Source of the DNA: a virus
DNA length: 55,793 bases
Virus record (IMG/VR): IMGVR_UViG_3300046011_004185
Coordinates: 1 to 55,793 of that record
Direction: 5' to 3' (one strand)
Positions 1,102-32,672 of this stretch are shown piece after piece. Within the stretch, counting starts at the first letter, position 1. The number at the start of each line of letters is the position of its first letter. A program made the position numbers and the translations under genes. Under the pieces are notes generated by a model that was not told where the DNA came from, did not search any database, and worked only from the letters and a program-made list of their open reading frames with translations.

Positions 1102-1295
1102 TCGATGTCCCTCAGCTTATAAAAAGAGTTGCCGTCTGCCTCACGGATTGAATCAATTTTGTACCCCTCACCGCGCAGCCGGTGGATGATGGACGACAGG
1201 CGATCGATGTTCATCCTTGTTGCCTGCTCATAAGTAATCTTTCCGGTCTTGATTAAACGCAGTAAGACCCGCTGCTTCTGAGTTCGCTTGCTCAT
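1098..1295 (-). CDS. Small helix-turn-helix DNA-binding protein
   Basis: 65 aa, basic. The core T-Q-K-Q-R-V-L-L-R-L, I-T-x-E-Q-A, and R-L-S-S-I-I-H-R-L-R-G-E-G-Y-x-I looks like the short winged-helix family (HTH_39-like) common in phages, ending in the usual wing. It starts with a GAGGA site and an ATGA overlap with the Rap1a-like gene. Probably a regulator or recombination-accessory protein; the target is unknown. Confidence 0.65.
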   Translation of the reverse strand: MSKRTQKQRVLLRLIKTGKITYEQATRMNIDRLSSIIHRLRGEGYKIDSIREADGNSFYKLRDIE

Positions 1296-1627
1296 ACCGG
1301 ATTCCTCGAGTTTCGGTTAGCGCATGGCCATACCTGTCTCAACGCATCTCGAGCTAAGACCTCAGCGTTTCGGTGGCGCTGCCCAGGATTGATAGTTAAG
1401 TACTGCAACACGATGTCCTGGACCTGGCCGGCTGTAATTACATTTTCTACCTTCGGGCAGATGGTGATATGCACATTGACATCGTAGATACCAACGACAT
1501 ACCCAAGGGCATACATCTTGTCGCCCACATTGGTACTGGTTAGCTTTTGATAAAGATCGTTGCCGGTCAAAAACTCAGCGCTCGCAACCGTAGGAACAAA
1601 CGCTAAAACCGCTAGCCACTTTTTCAT
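1292..1627 (-). CDS. Rap1a/Tai-family-like secreted immunity-type protein
   Basis: 111 aa. Residues 1-17 are a Sec signal peptide ending A-S-A. The mature part has the arrangement of the Rap1a/Tai family (type VI secretion amidase-immunity relatives): G-N-D-L-Y-Q-K-L, a Y-A-L-G-Y-V-V-G-I-Y-D segment, I-C-P after a beta strand, V-I-T-A-G-Q, Q-Y-L-x3-P, and a terminal W-P-C. The two mature cysteines (in ICP and WPC) probably form the family disulfide. Family members protect against peptidoglycan-cleaving effectors in the periplasm; phage copies have no established role. It sits in the early operon with small membrane proteins. Confidence 0.65.
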   Translation of the reverse strand: MKKWLAVLAFVPTVASAEFLTGNDLYQKLTSTNVGDKMYALGYVVGIYDVNVHITICPKVENVITAGQVQDIVLQYLTINPGQRHRNAEVLARDALRQVWPCANRNSRNPV

Positions 1628-24434: not shown

Positions 24435-24446
24435 AAAAAATTTTTT
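24435..24446. other. AT palindrome between fibre island and lysis cassette
   Basis: AAAAAATTTTTT, a perfect 12-bp palindrome overlapping the stop of the cupin gene, within a very AT-rich gap (24399-24450). It may mark a local promoter or terminator for the lysis cassette; no clear -35/-10 pair or GC stem was found. Confidence 0.3.
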
Positions 24447-24804
24447 ATAACACACTTACCTTTCCAGAAGAAAATATATTGTTTGTGTTTGGTATTTGAT
24501 CTGGCATTAAAATTTCTGACTCCTTACTTTCTGCGTTACGCAAAGCGTGAACGCAATAAGCGATGGTTCCATTTTCTAGCGCTTCAATAAAATGTCGTTT
24601 TCCTGCCTTTGTAATAAACACATGAGGAGCTTTAAAAATTGTTTCACTTCCATCAACATTAACTTTTACTGATCCACAAGCCACCAAAGTTAAATGATCA
24701 AAATTATGGACATGACCTTCGTTCATATCGCCTATGTTTTGAAAATTCATTTGACGAATCCATAAATTTGATGCAACTGTAATTTTTGTATCTGGATAAG
24801 CCAT
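24445..24804 (-). CDS. Cupin-fold protein
   Basis: 119 aa from the ATG at 24802-24804, coupled by TAATG to the zinc-ribbon gene and preceded by AAAGG. Single cupin: E-G-H31-V-H33-N-F-D-H37 gives a metal-binding motif 1, G-S-V-K-V-N-V-D-G-S is the strand pair between motifs, and H71 in K-R-H-F-I-E-A-L is motif 2. Small phage cupins of this kind have no established reaction; sugar-nucleotide or metal-dependent modification of a virion protein are possibilities. It lies in a low-GC stretch with the adhesin genes. Confidence 0.68.
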   Translation of the reverse strand: MAYPDTKITVASNLWIRQMNFQNIGDMNEGHVHNFDHLTLVACGSVKVNVDGSETIFKAPHVFITKAGKRHFIEALENGTIAYCVHALRNAESKESEILMPDQIPNTNNIFSSGKVSVL

Positions 24805-24983
24805 TACCATTTACCTTTTGGGCATTTTGCAATTTGAAATTGAATTTTTGTTTTGACAGGACATCCACACGCTCTGCATTGCATCACTTTAATAATTGGC
24901 ATTAACCGTAATTGATCACACCCCATACAAGTTTTTAATCTTGTAGTTTGTAAATCTTTAGTACTAATAACTTGTAAATTCAT
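24804..24983 (-). CDS. 59-aa zinc-ribbon protein
   Basis: ATG at 24981-24983, stop TAA at 24804-24806 overlapping the cupin start. Cysteines at 19, 22, 36, 39, 41 and 54 (C-M-G-C; C-R-A-C-G-C; C-P-K-G-K-W) form a zinc ribbon. The ending C-P-x-G-K-W is one I know from small unannotated cyanophage/T4-like marine phage proteins. Only three bases separate it from the upstream gene. Role unknown. Confidence 0.72.
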   Translation of the reverse strand: MNLQVISTKDLQTTRLKTCMGCDQLRLMPIIKVMQCRACGCPVKTKIQFQIAKCPKGKW

Positions 24984-24986
24984 AAT

Positions 24987-25400
24987 TTATAAATTGGAAA
25001 TTGGAATTTCTACTGGGTTATTTTCAATAACACCAAGCTCTACCAATACATCTGCAACTTGTTTTTTGAAGTGAATTTGTTCCCACATTTCAGAATTGGC
25101 TATAACTTCTGGATCAAGATCCAATGGAATATTTTCTAAATTTGCAAGAGATTTTCTTGTTGTTTCGCACTCAATACCAACAAGAGTTTGAATGTATGAC
25201 AAATCAGCATCTGGAGATTTTTGTGCCTCTATCGCTTCAATAGGAGGAGCGTAATCTTTTATGATTTGTTCTAATTCTTGTTGATTTTTTGGAAGAGGGT
25301 TTGTTAGCCTCAAACTTGCCCATGTTCCATCATCAAAAAATACCTCTAATGTTTTTAATTGATTATCAAATTTTGTAATTTTGTATTTTAATAAACTCAT
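24987..25400 (-). CDS. Hypothetical protein downstream of the adhesin
   Basis: 137 aa, GGAGG site. An N-terminal beta hairpin (Y-K-I-T-K-F-D-N-Q-L-K-T-L-E-V-F-F-D-D-G-T-W) is followed by a helical acidic region. Its position right after the glycine-rich adhesin, overlapping its stop, is where dedicated adhesin or fibre chaperones are usually found; no chaperone family was recognised. Distinctly AT-rich codon use compared with the flanking genes. Confidence 0.55.
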   Translation of the reverse strand: MSLLKYKITKFDNQLKTLEVFFDDGTWASLRLTNPLPKNQQELEQIIKDYAPPIEAIEAQKSPDADLSYIQTLVGIECETTRKSLANLENIPLDLDPEVIANSEMWEQIHFKKQVADVLVELGVIENNPVEIPISNL

Positions 25401-26311
25401 GCTAATCCTCCAGCGACGGTGCCGCTATTGTTTAATGTTACAGCGCTAGATCCTTTAACTAAATATCTACCAGCAGTTCCAAAAGTAGATCCAGCGGACC
25501 CAGTTAAACCACTTCCAACATTTCCGTTTGCACCGGTTGACCCAGTTGCTCCAGCGGTTCCAGAATTTCCAAATGTTCCTCCATTGCCGCCAGTACCACC
25601 AGTACCACCAGTACCGGCATTAGTGCCACCTGCGGCTCCAGCAGATCCAGCGGAACCATTAGATTGCGATTGGCTATAACCTTGCCCAGCGCCACCATTA
25701 CCACCAGCACCAGCAGCTCCACCACTTGTAGATACAGTTTTGCTACACGCATTAGACCCAATACAAGTCCAACAAGCTCCTTTTCCGTTATAACTGCAAG
25801 TTCCTATACAAGTCGTAAATCCAGTTTCACTACACGATCCATTACAACCACTTGGGTTGCATCCACCACCAGGACCTGTTTGTGTAGTAGATCCAGACCC
25901 TCCTTGACCACCAGCGCCGCCTTTGCCACCACCGCCACCACCACCGCGAATATTTGCGCCAGAGTTGTTGTTAATTACAACAGTTTGATTTGGATAGTCA
26001 GCGTAAATTGCATCTCCGCCGTTTCCACCTGCGCCACTTGTTCCAGCAGCACCACCAAAACCATCAATATTTCCGCTGTTGTTTATAGTAATAGTTGAAT
26101 TGGTTGGAAATTGACCAACCGTTAGAGCGGTACTACTTCCAGTTCCGCCAACTGTCACTCCAGAATTAATGTTTAAAATTACATTTTTAGCTTCGGTTGG
26201 TGATCCCGCAGCCGTAAACAAATTATAATTTGTTGTTGTTGAAGATAGCGTTATTGTAATTGTCGGAAGACCATAAGACCCACCAACAAACGCTGCAACA
26301 ATCCCAGTCAT
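25397..26311 (-). CDS. Polyglycine adhesin with eight-cysteine insertion
   Basis: 304 aa. Residues 1-80 are beta-strand/parallel-helix-like, and 83-304 are dominated by G-G-x-G-G runs as in polyglycine type II sandwich adhesins (gp38 receptor-binding proteins of T-even-like phages). Between the glycine blocks, residues 151-189 contain eight cysteines (151, 156, 160, 168, 172, 180, 183, 189) with no glycine repeat, as if a disulfide-rich knob were inserted in the tip. Low-GC DNA compared with the rest. Likely a receptor-binding tip; assembly may need the downstream 137-aa protein. Confidence 0.65.
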   Translation of the reverse strand: MTGIVAAFVGGSYGLPTITITLSSTTTNYNLFTAAGSPTEAKNVILNINSGVTVGGTGSSTALTVGQFPTNSTITINNSGNIDGFGGAAGTSGAGGNGGDAIYADYPNQTVVINNNSGANIRGGGGGGGKGGAGGQGGSGSTTQTGPGGGCNPSGCNGSCSETGFTTCIGTCSYNGKGACWTCIGSNACSKTVSTSGGAAGAGGNGGAGQGYSQSQSNGSAGSAGAAGGTNAGTGGTGGTGGNGGTFGNSGTAGATGSTGANGNVGSGLTGSAGSTFGTAGRYLVKGSSAVTLNNSGTVAGGLA

Positions 26312-26766
26312 GTTACATTCCCAGAAACAATGCAGACGGTTCCGCTGAGGAATAGGATATTTGCCAATCCCCTAGTAGCCAGGGTCATGGTGCTCTTATC
26401 CGTGTCCGTGCCCGCGATGTAGGCGGTTGTAATCGTGCAGGTGATCGTTATGTTGCCAGTTGTGTTGTTAGCAATAACAATTGCATCTCCGGTTGAAAAC
26501 ACGCCATCTGGAATTGTCACCGAGCCGCCGGAACCCACCTGAATGTACTGTCCAACATCGCTGGTTGCCAGCGTGTAACTGGTCGTCTTAGCTGATCCAG
26601 ATTGTGGAATAGCACGAATATTACCGGCTGAGTCAGAAATTATTCCAGAAGTATTGATCGTCAACCTAGTCGTGCCGTTAGTCTGCAGCTCAAGCTGGCC
26701 CGAGGCGTCCCCGGTCGAGATCAAGCCACCCGAGCCGGATGAGGTTGCGTTTATGGTTGATGGCAT
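26308..26766 (-). CDS. Small fibre-like virion protein
   Basis: 152 aa, GGAGT site. Ser/Thr/Gly/Ile-rich all-beta. It starts like the 190-aa protein at 32675: both carry T-G-D-x-x-G-Q-L-x-L-Q-T-N-G-T-T. The rest (V-G-Q-Y-I-Q-V-G-S-G-G-S-V-T-I-P-D-G) is a beta-rich trimer-type module. It overlaps the start of the Cys-rich adhesin by 4 bases and may be the base on which that adhesin sits. Confidence 0.55.
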   Translation of the reverse strand: MPSTINATSSGSGGLISTGDASGQLELQTNGTTRLTINTSGIISDSAGNIRAIPQSGSAKTTSYTLATSDVGQYIQVGSGGSVTIPDGVFSTGDAIVIANNTTGNITITCTITTAYIAGTDTDKSTMTLATRGLANILFLSGTVCIVSGNVT

Positions 26767-27158: not shown

Positions 27159-28442
27159 TCAGAATCCTTCTGTCCAATAAAGAACAACTACACCCGTGCC
27201 GCCTGAACCTGCGGTAACACCACTACCACCACCCTGTGAAGCGCCACCACCACCTCCAGCATAACTACCTGATCCGCCTCTTGTAGCTGCACCGCTTTGG
27301 CAAGACGCTCCGCCTCCACCACCAAGCGGACCACCATTTCCGCCAACTGCTGGGCTAGCCGAGTCACCGGAAGAAGCCCCACCACCTCCACCACCTAAAC
27401 CGCCATCACCGCCAGTTGGATTTGACGAACCAGTACCGCTATAAGCCCCACCACCGCCACCACCGGGTGAACCATTGCCACCAAAACAAATTACCGTACC
27501 ACTTGCGCCGGCTCCGCCGCCGCCACCATTTAAGGTTTGATAAATAACATCAATCCATGTGCCGCTACCAAAACCATTACCCGCTCTCATAAATGCACCA
27601 GATGTACTAAATGCACCAATACCAGCACCATTTGATCCAGATGCGTTTGCTGCTCCGGAAACTCCACCTAAAACTGTCGAACCAAACGATCCGCTCCCGC
27701 CATTTCCACCAATGACATTACCGCCTGCTGCTGATTGGCCATTTGAACCAGATCCACCACCGCCAGTCATAAAGGCTTGACTAGCAACTAATGCGTCACC
27801 ACCTCTAAATCCTGCACCGCCGCCGCCAGTAGCTTGGTTTCCTTGGTTTACCGAACTACCAATATTTCCACCACGGCCATTTGACCCAAGCCCGCCACCA
27901 CCAGTTGAAGAGGGTTGTGTGCTTGATCCTGAATTTGTTCCACCCGCCCCACCAGTGCCGTAGTGAGATCCAGCACCACCACCACCTCCGGCTGTATTGT
28001 TTGAAGATTGCCCGGTTCCACCAGCACCACCAGAGGCGGTATATGAACCTCTTAGAGTTGTAGCAGCAGTTCCTGATCCACCAGATCCAGGTGTATTTCC
28101 AGAAGCGTTAGTACCGCCAGTAGCGGTTAACAAAGTTCCATAAGAACTTGTTCCTCCTTGACCTCCTACTGTTATGGTGTCAAGCGTCTGTCCAGGAATA
28201 ACATCAATAACTCCATATGCAAACCCACCTCCACCTCCCCCAGCGCTCGGAGTGCTGGAAGTATTAGTTGATGCACCATTGCCGCCACCACCCCAAACAG
28301 CTACACCGATTTGATATACATTTTGTGGTACGACTTCCGTAGAGGTGGTTGAAGTGATAAGTTTGAATTGCGCCCATCGAGCAGGCGCTACACGGGTTGC
28401 ATAATTAGGCGGCAACCCAAAGCCATACATTCCCTTATTCAT
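27159..28442 (-). CDS. Glycine-rich tail fibre/adhesin (Gly_rich-type)
   Basis: 427 aa. After ~45 residues comes V-A-V-W-G-G-G-G-N-G and then about 370 residues of G-G-G-x-G repeats with short Thr/Asn/Ser insertions, closing with G-G-T-G-V-V-V-L-Y-W-T-E-G, a terminal signature of glycine-rich fibre domains. Such domains fold as triangular polyglycine lattices that present variable loops to the receptor. The loops between the glycine blocks are the likely host-range determinants. Confidence 0.72.
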   Translation of the reverse strand: MNKGMYGFGLPPNYATRVAPARWAQFKLITSTTSTEVVPQNVYQIGVAVWGGGGNGASTNTSSTPSAGGGGGGFAYGVIDVIPGQTLDTITVGGQGGTSSYGTLLTATGGTNASGNTPGSGGSGTAATTLRGSYTASGGAGGTGQSSNNTAGGGGGAGSHYGTGGAGGTNSGSSTQPSSTGGGGLGSNGRGGNIGSSVNQGNQATGGGGAGFRGGDALVASQAFMTGGGGSGSNGQSAAGGNVIGGNGGSGSFGSTVLGGVSGAANASGSNGAGIGAFSTSGAFMRAGNGFGSGTWIDVIYQTLNGGGGGAGASGTVICFGGNGSPGGGGGGAYSGTGSSNPTGGDGGLGGGGGGASSGDSASPAVGGNGGPLGGGGGASCQSGAATRGGSGSYAGGGGGASQGGGSGVTAGSGGTGVVVLYWTEGF

Positions 28443-29629: not shown

Positions 29630-30160
29630 CTAGGCTATCGCATAAGACCAGCCGGACTTATTATGACGACACCGCCATTGAATTGTCACGGCTGGAATGT
29701 TTAATTCCTTTGCTGCCTCGGTTGTTGAACCAAAAACACCAAAGGGGCTGACTACGGTCTTTGCTCGGTAATTATTGCTTCCACCAACAGCAATAGACAT
29801 TTTTGCTTTTACTTCAGGTCTGTGCATTACGTTTTTCTCGCCAATAGCCCAAGGTTTTGGCTTTCCTTTTAATGCCTCAGACTTCTTGCGCTTGGTCTCC
29901 TCGCTATTGGGTTTACCAAGGTTTCCGTCACGCACATTGATCTTTCCAAGGCCGATAAACACGTTGCCGACCTCATAGCAACCTTTATCACCTATACGGC
30001 ACATACAATATTTGTCTGCACCACGGCCACGTTGATCCCATTTACCGGAATCAAGCCAAATCTGTTTCCACTCATCAAAAGTCAATTTAACTTCTATGCC
30101 TCTAGTTTTGGCGTTTGACTTATGTTGCGTGTAGGCTTTGAGGAACGGATCTCTTGTCAT
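29630..30160 (-). CDS. Freestanding HNH/NUMOD-type homing endonuclease
   Basis: 176 aa. The N-terminus has an HNH-like zinc site (C-M-C-R-I-G-D-K-G-C-Y-E-V-G-N-V). The middle S-E-E-T-K-R-K-K-S-E-A-L-K-G-K is a NUMOD3 DNA-binding module, and the C-terminus V-F-G-S-T-T-E-A-A-K-E-L-N-I then W-R-C-R-H-N-K-S-G-W-S-Y looks like a NUMOD1/HTH tail. The gene cuts a specific site in related phages and spreads by gene conversion. It lies directly downstream of the 651-aa fibre gene; a second HNH gene lies directly upstream. Confidence 0.78.
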   Translation of the reverse strand: MTRDPFLKAYTQHKSNAKTRGIEVKLTFDEWKQIWLDSGKWDQRGRGADKYCMCRIGDKGCYEVGNVFIGLGKINVRDGNLGKPNSEETKRKKSEALKGKPKPWAIGEKNVMHRPEVKAKMSIAVGGSNNYRAKTVVSPFGVFGSTTEAAKELNIPAVTIQWRCRHNKSGWSYAIA

Positions 30161-30162
30161 GG

Positions 30163-32118
30163 TCAGGCCACCGCAAAAAATATGAATGTCCCACCGTTAG
30201 CGTTTATTGCCGCCGGTGCGGTACTACTAATCTCAAACCCTGAGTTTGCGGTGTCAATGTAGTCTGTATTGGTGACTTCCGCCGCCGTTGAGTTTAGAAG
30301 CAGATATGGATCGTTCCCGGCCACTATGCCGCGAGCCGAATCCCAGACGTACCAATCGCCAGTGTTGTCTGATCGCTTAATCATTACAAAACGACTTCCT
30401 GCGGTGAATCCACAATCAATAGTTTGTGTTGATCCTGTACCCGTATAGAAGCCTACTTTGCTTACTCCTGCAACGGTGGCAAACAAATAAGCTACATAAG
30501 TAACTCCGGAGGCATTTACTTCATTTGTTGAACCAACAGTAAAAACTGAAGATGTTGCATTTGTATTATTCCAATATGCACTTGAACCAGCATAAGCGCT
30601 AGTTGAATTCAATATAAGTATGCCAGCACCTTTGTTGTTTGGTGTGTAAACATTCCACCACTCGCCTGATGCGCTTCGAGCCTTCACCCACATCATTTGT
30701 GGTTCAACAGTTAAATTATGAGTAACTGTTCTTCCTGACGTACCATTACCCGTATAGCAGACCACATCAAAGAAGCCAGGGGCGCGTTTGAAGTGCCATC
30801 TTGCTTGATTATTGTTGTTATAAGAAAGTTGAAAACTATTTTGTAAATCAAATTGGCAAACACTTACAGTTTGTTCTGCGGCAGTTGAGGCTGTTCCACC
30901 AAAATATTTGTTATTACCAGCTAAACGATAAACCACAACAGAATTAAGAGCATTTCCTGATTGGTCACCAGAAATACAAAGATCAGTCGGAAACCCAACA
31001 GCATAAGACGATGACCCAGCATGAACTTTTGGATAGAACACACTCGTCCCACTCGTAGGCGTTTTCATCGGCCCACGGCGAATGGCGATGTAGATCATTG
31101 TGTTGCCATTGCCGTTTACTTCACTAGAACTAGAAACAAGCGTGAATCCTGTTGCGGTAGGGCTTAGATAATCATTAGAGAGTTCAGCACTTGAACTGTT
31201 TGCGATTAAACGCTGGTCATTACCGCTTACAACCATGCCACGCATATTGTCAATTATTTGCCAGCTTCCTGTGGTGCCAGCATTTTTTATCATTAACCAT
31301 TGCGGTTCATAACCAAGAGTTACCGTTGGCCCTGATGTAGAGCCGTTACCTGTGTAAGAACCACAAGTAATCACATTATCCGAACCGGTTAGGCCAAAGC
31401 CGCCAGCATCGTGGGCGAAGAGGTAGGCGACGTAGTTAAAGCCATTTGAGTTTACGTCTCCGGCTGTTCCTACCCCAAAAGTAGTGGCGTTCATGTCAGG
31501 TGGGTTTGTTTCGCTACCCCAATAATTTGATGCTTGGTCTGCATACGCGCCAGTGCTGTCTAAAAAGGCAGCAAATTTTCCATTGGTTTGAGTTCCAGAA
31601 CGATGCCAAACAGCCCAAGAACCTGTTGAGTCATATCGTTTTATTATTATGCAGCCGGGCGCAGAACCAAGATTGTGTGCAACCGTGCGTGGAGAACCTG
31701 TCCCCGTATACGTCACAATATCAAAGAACTTTGGTTGCTCTCGGAATGTCCAAGAAACTAAAGTATCAGCAGAAAAATTATATGTACTGTCTGTTCCTAA
31801 TGTAAAACCAGTAGTTCCAAACGCCGTCAAAGAATTTGCTAAGGTTGACTGTGCATTTGTCAGGTTGGTGTAAATAACATTGTTTGCGCCGCGAGTTGTG
31901 TCGTAAATACCATTATCACTTGTACTTCCACGGTTTTTTAACCAAACCATCCCACCTTTAGTGGACAGATCAATGTTGTTGGTAATGGTTTGTGTAGAAC
32001 TGTTTCCTGTATAAAGGTATGTCGAAAAGACATCCTCAATGTAATTAACTGCCGCAGACTGGGCGAACTCCCCAAATCCCTGAGCAGATGCGGCGCCTTT
32101 TGTAGCGATTAGAGGCAT
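30163..32118 (-). CDS. Multimodular fibre protein (five repeated beta modules)
   Basis: 651 aa from the ATG at 32116-32118 with GGAGG upstream, inside the end of the upstream HNH gene. Five modules of about 100 residues begin near 36, 131, 250, 450 and 555, each with Y-T-G-N/T-G, a strand with P or G, I/M-x-I/V-K-R/N, and W-x-V/I-W/Y-x (for example C-I-I-I-K-R-Y-D-S-T-G-S-W-A-V-W). Most modules end G-x-x-Y-V-A-Y-L-F-A-like. Repeats of this kind occur in marine-phage appendage proteins. Bracketed by two homing endonuclease genes and AT-richer than its neighbours. Confidence 0.65.
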   Translation of the reverse strand: MPLIATKGAASAQGFGEFAQSAAVNYIEDVFSTYLYTGNSSTQTITNNIDLSTKGGMVWLKNRGSTSDNGIYDTTRGANNVIYTNLTNAQSTLANSLTAFGTTGFTLGTDSTYNFSADTLVSWTFREQPKFFDIVTYTGTGSPRTVAHNLGSAPGCIIIKRYDSTGSWAVWHRSGTQTNGKFAAFLDSTGAYADQASNYWGSETNPPDMNATTFGVGTAGDVNSNGFNYVAYLFAHDAGGFGLTGSDNVITCGSYTGNGSTSGPTVTLGYEPQWLMIKNAGTTGSWQIIDNMRGMVVSGNDQRLIANSSSAELSNDYLSPTATGFTLVSSSSEVNGNGNTMIYIAIRRGPMKTPTSGTSVFYPKVHAGSSSYAVGFPTDLCISGDQSGNALNSVVVYRLAGNNKYFGGTASTAAEQTVSVCQFDLQNSFQLSYNNNNQARWHFKRAPGFFDVVCYTGNGTSGRTVTHNLTVEPQMMWVKARSASGEWWNVYTPNNKGAGILILNSTSAYAGSSAYWNNTNATSSVFTVGSTNEVNASGVTYVAYLFATVAGVSKVGFYTGTGSTQTIDCGFTAGSRFVMIKRSDNTGDWYVWDSARGIVAGNDPYLLLNSTAAEVTNTDYIDTANSGFEISSTAPAAINANGGTFIFFAVA

Positions 32119-32672
32119 CTCAACCTCCAGCCCTTGCTTAAGTTTTCTGTAGCTGTAATAACCTGAAGGTTCCAAGGCACATGAAGCCCGCACACTTCAG
32201 GATTGTGAATTGGAACCACATGGTCAACATGGTACTTAATGCCAGTTTGCATTTCTTTGGCTTTGGCAATTTCGTAGTGTTCCAAAATCTGCGCCTTATT
32301 TATGTTATTTAACCACTTTGGGGTAGCCATGTCTTGCGCGGCTCTTCGTCTTGCCCGATTTGCAACATAACGAGCTTGATTAGCCTTGTAATACTCATGC
32401 AAATAATTTGGGTTGCGCTCATGCCATTTTTTTGAAGCGTTTCTAACAGACGATTTTGCTGCTTCTGGGTTAGTAACACGCCACTCTTTTTCTGGATTTT
32501 TCTTGCGCCATTTTGCGGTTGATTTGTTTACCTTGTCACGGTTCTCAGCATTCCAAACATATTGTTGCAACTGCCTGCATCGACGGCAAGTTTGATAATA
32601 CTTACCGCTGACTTTATGAAACTGAAAGTCAGTCTGAAGTTTATCTTGTTGGCACTTGCGGCAAATTGGCAT
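32109..32672 (-). CDS. HNH homing endonuclease with N-terminal zinc finger
   Basis: 187 aa. The N-terminus C4-R-K-C7 and C29-R-R-C32 form a zinc finger, a basic helical middle follows, and the HNH core is Y-H148-V-D150-H151-V-V-P-I with N168 in W-N-L-Q-V-I and N177. This is a common freestanding phage HNH architecture. Its last ten bases overlap the start of the 651-aa fibre, whose ribosome site lies within it, so the two are translationally linked. Confidence 0.85.
   Translation of the reverse strand: MPICRKCQQDKLQTDFQFHKVSGKYYQTCRRCRQLQQYVWNAENRDKVNKSTAKWRKKNPEKEWRVTNPEAAKSSVRNASKKWHERNPNYLHEYYKANQARYVANRARRRAAQDMATPKWLNNINKAQILEHYEIAKAKEMQTGIKYHVDHVVPIHNPEVCGLHVPWNLQVITATENLSKGWRLRCL

Follow-up and report, generated by a model that had tools for sequence, protein, structure and literature searches.

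The best described counterparts of the protein studied here are the gp38 adhesins of Salmonella phage S16 and Escherichia phage PP01. Canonical gp38 docks on the gp37 trimer by an N-terminal helical bundle with an exposed Trp, and it caps this fiber trimer as a monomer (PMC6851490). In S16 gp38, the glycine run at residues 151-158 (GGGGGGGG) is helix 3 in the naming of the structure's authors (PMC6851490). In PP01 gp38, loop-B (residues 161-170) is a distal-tip loop, and adsorption requires residues 158-170 (PMC12892980).

We analyzed a 55,793-nucleotide stretch of DNA from an uncultured phage (IMG/VR record IMGVR_UViG_3300046011_004185; hereafter, the window), in which a minus-strand open reading frame at 25397-26311 encodes a 304-residue protein that is probably the one with which this phage grips its host. 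Like the gp38 proteins of S16 (PDB 6F45) and PP01 (PDB 9V85), it contains a predicted beta-helix and polyglycine blocks, its glycine-rich motifs are separated by variable segments, and its gene lies directly after a fiber gene. However, where loop-B of those proteins has about 10 residues, the window's adhesin carries a 39-residue domain with eight cysteines.

Fold of the adhesin and position of its insert

The initial annotation had assigned this protein to the gp38-type polyglycine-sandwich adhesins, and our structural comparisons bear this out. We built a structure model on 18 relatives, which reached a moderate mean pLDDT of 67.7; confidence was good in the beta-helix part, and polyglycine residues 205-265 had values below 50. 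When this model was compared with solved structures using VIA-align, the best matches were PP01 gp38 (9v85_A, Z 14.0) and S16 gp38 (6f45_D, Z 13.6), with the next match at 6.6. Foldseek found viral models named Gp38 (BFVD) and, used alone against the PDB, gave no significant match. The adhesin also matches PHROG 10745, a family of unknown function (E 2.2e-28), although the best-scoring stretch (residues 15-145) stops ahead of the cysteine insert, and its score against the Pfam GP38 family (PF05268), 12.1 bits, is under the curated cut-off of 25. The depositors of a cultured relative, Paso CPT_Paso_047, had themselves noted an HHpred match to S16 gp38.

The helical attachment bundle of gp38 is absent from the adhesin, which has about 15 residues, and no Trp, ahead of the beta-helix. 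Given that the fold is found while the bundle is missing, we conclude that the adhesin is gp38-like in its tip part and not a canonical gp38, and that its short hydrophobic N-terminus probably mediates docking. As to oligomeric state, for which trimer or monomer modeling had been proposed at the outset, the precedent in this family is not itself a trimer but caps the fiber trimer as a monomer (PMC6851490).

The beta-helix part comprises residues 16-122 (25946-26266, minus strand), with predicted strands and block pLDDT values mostly of 72-95, and a portion of it aligns within S16 gp38 101-158. It is followed on the same strand by a polyglycine block (residues 123-138; 25898-25945), the eight-cysteine insert (residues 151-189; 25745-25861), and further polyglycine blocks (residues 197-281; 25469-25723). 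We define the slot as running from the polyglycine block to the motif GGTNAG[TA]GGTG, which is located behind the insert, and we take the last polyglycine block as its boundary. The conserved glycine blocks thus flank a slot of far higher protein divergence, the arrangement of glycine-rich motifs and hypervariable segments.

Positions 68-120 of the family profile align to S16 gp38 101-158, a match that is weak from sequence only (E 0.054), and this alignment ends at the glycine run of helix 3, of which the polyglycine block preceding the slot is the counterpart in the alignment to 6f45_D. A second stretch, the blocks behind the slot, aligns to S16 gp38 165-247, nonsignificantly and with scores below zero. 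Because the profile alignment ends at helix 3, the insert most likely occupies the loop directly after this helix, the position of PP01 loop-B, which agrees with the distal tip-loop placement first suggested for it. In related phages, this slot helps decide host range.

The cysteine cluster is exactly as originally reported. Its cysteines, at residues 151, 156, 160, 168, 172, 180, 183, and 189, are the only ones in the protein, and at the cysteine rate of the window's 41 open reading frames (0.53%, 76 of 14,325 residues), eight in 39 residues has a p of 3e-11 per stretch and of about 5e-7 over all positions. Gly-Gly pairs, described as few, are in fact entirely absent from the insert. The reported low GC holds in a mild form, with the insert at 41.9%, compared to 46.8% for the gene and 51.3% for the window.

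Cysteines of the slot in relatives and environmental phages

Four viral contigs encode relatives of the adhesin at about 78-82% identity, three of them (L001-L003) carrying one sequence. Their inserts differ strongly from the window's, and yet six cysteines line up and are invariant among these close relatives. We estimated pN and pS from codon counts for three pairs. In the scaffold flanks, pN was 0.05-0.13 and pS 0.50-0.70; in the insert, pS was 0.53-0.66 and pN 0.29-0.52, about 2 to 10 times the flank value, although the insert alignment is uncertain and may inflate pN. Since synonymous divergence is alike inside and outside the insert, this looks like fast protein change and not a recent swap. 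A diversity-generating retroelement was considered as its source and is not favored: 11 contigs (L045 and ten other loci) share one eight-cysteine adhesin gene with identical DNA, which argues against rapid mutagenesis, and 18 records, the majority fragmentary, yielded no RVT_1 reverse transcriptase.

To look across environmental phages, we scanned for GGTNAG[TA]GGTG, which matched at least 120 stretches. Among the matches listed, 109 slots reduced to 75 distinct ones at 70% identity, nearly all full-length members had the slot filled by some insert, and the content was of two kinds, either an insert rich in Tyr and Trp and about 80 residues long or a cysteine-rich one. In this same set of 75 distinct slots, 35 had no cysteine, two had one, 11 had two, and one had three; higher counts were four (six slots), six (10 slots), eight (seven slots), and ten (three slots). 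Paired cysteines predict even counts, and all 26 of the listed distinct slots with at least four cysteines were even and none odd (p = 1.5e-8, a value that takes distinct slots as independent and that shared descent weakens), whereas other long open reading frames of the same contigs gave 49 even and 44 odd counts. His made up 0.6% of the listed cysteine-rich slots. The Tyr/Trp-rich inserts, seen before GGTNAG in L035-L154, often contain Y-T-R-G and end near T-S-G-G. We also observed what appear to be two adhesin genes, each with its own cysteine-rich insert, on a single 22,502-base contig (L052:5563-6471 and L098:5963-6868), a reading based on the two stretches together summing to the whole contig.

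We selected ten divergent inserts by their cysteine pattern; their alignment shows a framework of C-x3-C ... C-x3-C ... C-x2-C, and its six cysteines are nearly invariant across these ten. Among the matches listed, this framework occurs in 10 of the 20 distinct inserts with at least six cysteines, the window's included; the remaining inserts have other spacings, so several folds are possible. Together with the parity result, the shared framework argues that the cysteine content is disulfide-like and not random, as the initial annotation had supposed. Three disulfides probably join the framework (residues 156, 160, 168, 172, 180, and 183 in the window's adhesin). The window's version has the extra cysteines C151 and C189 flanking it, as L094 likewise has one extra on each side, and this pair fits an added stem disulfide.

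A model of the insert alone (mean pLDDT 76) had a beta-alpha-beta-beta-beta order, placed C156 and C160 within its helix, and matched no solved structure by Foldseek, up to E 10, or by VIA-align. In having fixed cysteines that enclose variable residues, and in the predicted beta-alpha-beta-beta order, the insert resembles knottins, defensins, and conotoxins, although its model is without a solved match. A phmmer match to a defensin-like protein (E 0.38) was insignificant; this match and those to EZH2 and scFv reflected Gly or Cys composition, and all of them were set aside.

Searching cultured phages by tblastn returned no match for the whole adhesin, for its N-terminal part or its insert used separately, for the 137-residue protein encoded downstream, or for the cupin, and a query of eight inserts joined end to end also gave none at E 10. 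Cultured relatives were found only via the N-terminal domains of other members, and among those checked (ten proteins, some sharing the N-terminal domain only), the cysteine-rich slot was absent; nor was one seen in the three genome contigs that contain the scaffold motif. The Rhizobium phages RHph_Y68 (EVB55_010) and Paso (CPT_Paso_047) have the same family of protein and the same slot, and RHph_Y68 keeps the GGTNAGTGGTGG block, but both fill the slot with a cysteine-free, Tyr/Trp-rich insert. Being present in cultured phages, this kind of insert is the testable counterpart of the cysteine-rich one.

The insert had been proposed as a single new type. Many versions exist, with at least 26 distinct slots of four or more cysteines recovered by the suggested search of environmental phage proteins, so the window holds one version in a widespread slot and not a lone oddity. 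A cysteine-rich mini-domain in the gp38-type tip slot, present across many environmental phages, appears not to have been described previously; the open-licence full-text literature yielded no earlier description of phage tail or adhesin proteins rich in cysteines or disulfides, an absence that is not proof.

Gene neighborhood

Immediately upstream of the adhesin lies the gene of a fiber protein (26308-26766, minus strand), and the adhesin probably docks on the C-terminal domain of this protein. The last 63 residues of this fiber are 28-37% identical to the fiber ends upstream of five other cysteine-insert adhesins and 20% identical to that of L044, and 87 of 93 members among the matches listed have a fiber-like open reading frame immediately before the adhesin gene. 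A few genes farther upstream, at 27159-28442 (minus strand), the window encodes another glycine-rich tail protein, which matches Gly_rich_2 below the cut-off and has two cysteines only.

A cupin and a zinc-ribbon gene had been reported to follow the adhesin. Both are downstream, in the order 137-residue protein, 59-residue cysteine-rich protein, and cupin, all on the minus strand and all retained in close relatives. The 137-residue protein (24987-25400), with Y-x-I-T-K-F-D near its start, lies directly downstream, is 57-70% identical in the close relatives, and is possibly an assembly helper. The 59-residue protein (24804-24983) has six cysteines and is probably a zinc ribbon (DUF6171-like, 23.2 bits, cut-off 27; PHROG 13558, E 1.4e-11), and it is kept in L001-L004. 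The 121-residue cupin (24445-24810; AraC_binding 22.9 bits, cut-off 21.1; Cupin_2 21.2 bits, cut-off 27.2) has relatives at 18 viral loci. In L044, a different phage, 137-residue-like proteins and a cupin also lie downstream of the adhesin. Because cupins occur beside adhesins without cysteine inserts as well, the cupin is not tied to the cysteines.

Several other genes caught our attention. A 209-residue open reading frame beside the adhesin cassette of L044 (2479-3108) looks like an aspartyl/asparaginyl hydroxylase. In the window, two open reading frames among the fiber genes (29630-30160 and 32109-32672, minus strand) look like HNH-type endonucleases, and 1292-1627 (minus strand) matches the Rap1a immunity protein family (PF18602, E 1.6e-14).

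Proposed working of the insert and rival explanations

The reading we think likely is that of an adhesin capping the tail fiber with a disulfide-stapled recognition knob in the loop-B slot, oxidized after lysis. The adhesin, probably as a monomer, would cap the fiber, its short beta-helix carrying the polyglycine helices and presenting the 39-residue mini-domain in the slot after helix 3. Three disulfides would join the framework, with a fourth, C151-C189, tying the stem in the version found in the window. The fixed cysteines would hold the fold of the knob while the residues between them vary, and these variable residues may bind the receptor, so that the knob could follow a changing host receptor. 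Phage proteins fold in the reducing cytoplasm. Given this site of synthesis, the insert would most likely be oxidized after lysis. It counts against the reading that a search of 18 records, largely fragments, turned up neither a thioredoxin nor a glutaredoxin.

The same cysteines could be read in other ways. The idea that chance or an assembly error in a single contig produced them deserves practically no credence and is already refuted by relatives, since the same framework occurs in independent contigs and another insert gene is DNA-identical across 11 of them. Binding of a metal, zinc or an iron-sulfur cluster, would instead make the insert a metal-stabilized loop, the alternative raised in the initial annotation; C-x2-C and C-x3-C spacings do occur in metal sites, and the same cassette encodes a probable zinc ribbon and a cupin. 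However, among the matches listed, slots of 4, 6, 8, and 10 cysteines fit pairs better than fours, His is scarce, and 11 distinct slots have exactly two cysteines and two have one. With the 6- and 10-cysteine versions and the scarcity of His in mind, we regard metal binding as improbable.

It is somewhat less improbable, though still unlikely, that the insert is a disulfide-stapled cap that stabilizes the polyglycine sandwich at its exposed end without itself binding a receptor. Such a cap would account for conserved framework cysteines and for a slot that is filled in nearly all full-length members listed, but it should be conserved, and instead the insert evolves far faster in protein sequence than the scaffold (by the pN values above) and is replaced wholesale by Tyr/Trp-rich inserts, while the equivalent loop-B of PP01 is essential for adsorption (PMC12892980). 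Very unlikely, finally, is a mechanism in which cysteines that remain reduced in the virion form covalent thiol-disulfide links with the host surface: the reducing cytoplasm and the lack of a thioredoxin or glutaredoxin gene in the largely fragmentary records would suit it, yet it needs one or a few exposed thiols and not conserved, even-numbered sets.

In this family, the part of the virion that probably decides the host swaps between two kinds of insert, one of which appears to rely on disulfides, bonds not expected in a virus protein made in the cytoplasm. If the disulfide-stapled knob is the correct reading, the inserts would be a natural set of stabilized binding scaffolds whose variation has already been sampled by selection, and the maturation of a phage tip via oxidation after lysis becomes testable. 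More tentatively, and with appreciable doubt, environmental phages may hold a natural library of disulfide-stapled mini-domains on tips that are competent only once oxidized outside the cell. If true, this library would be a counterpart of venom peptides and defensins, and adsorption would be switched on by release.
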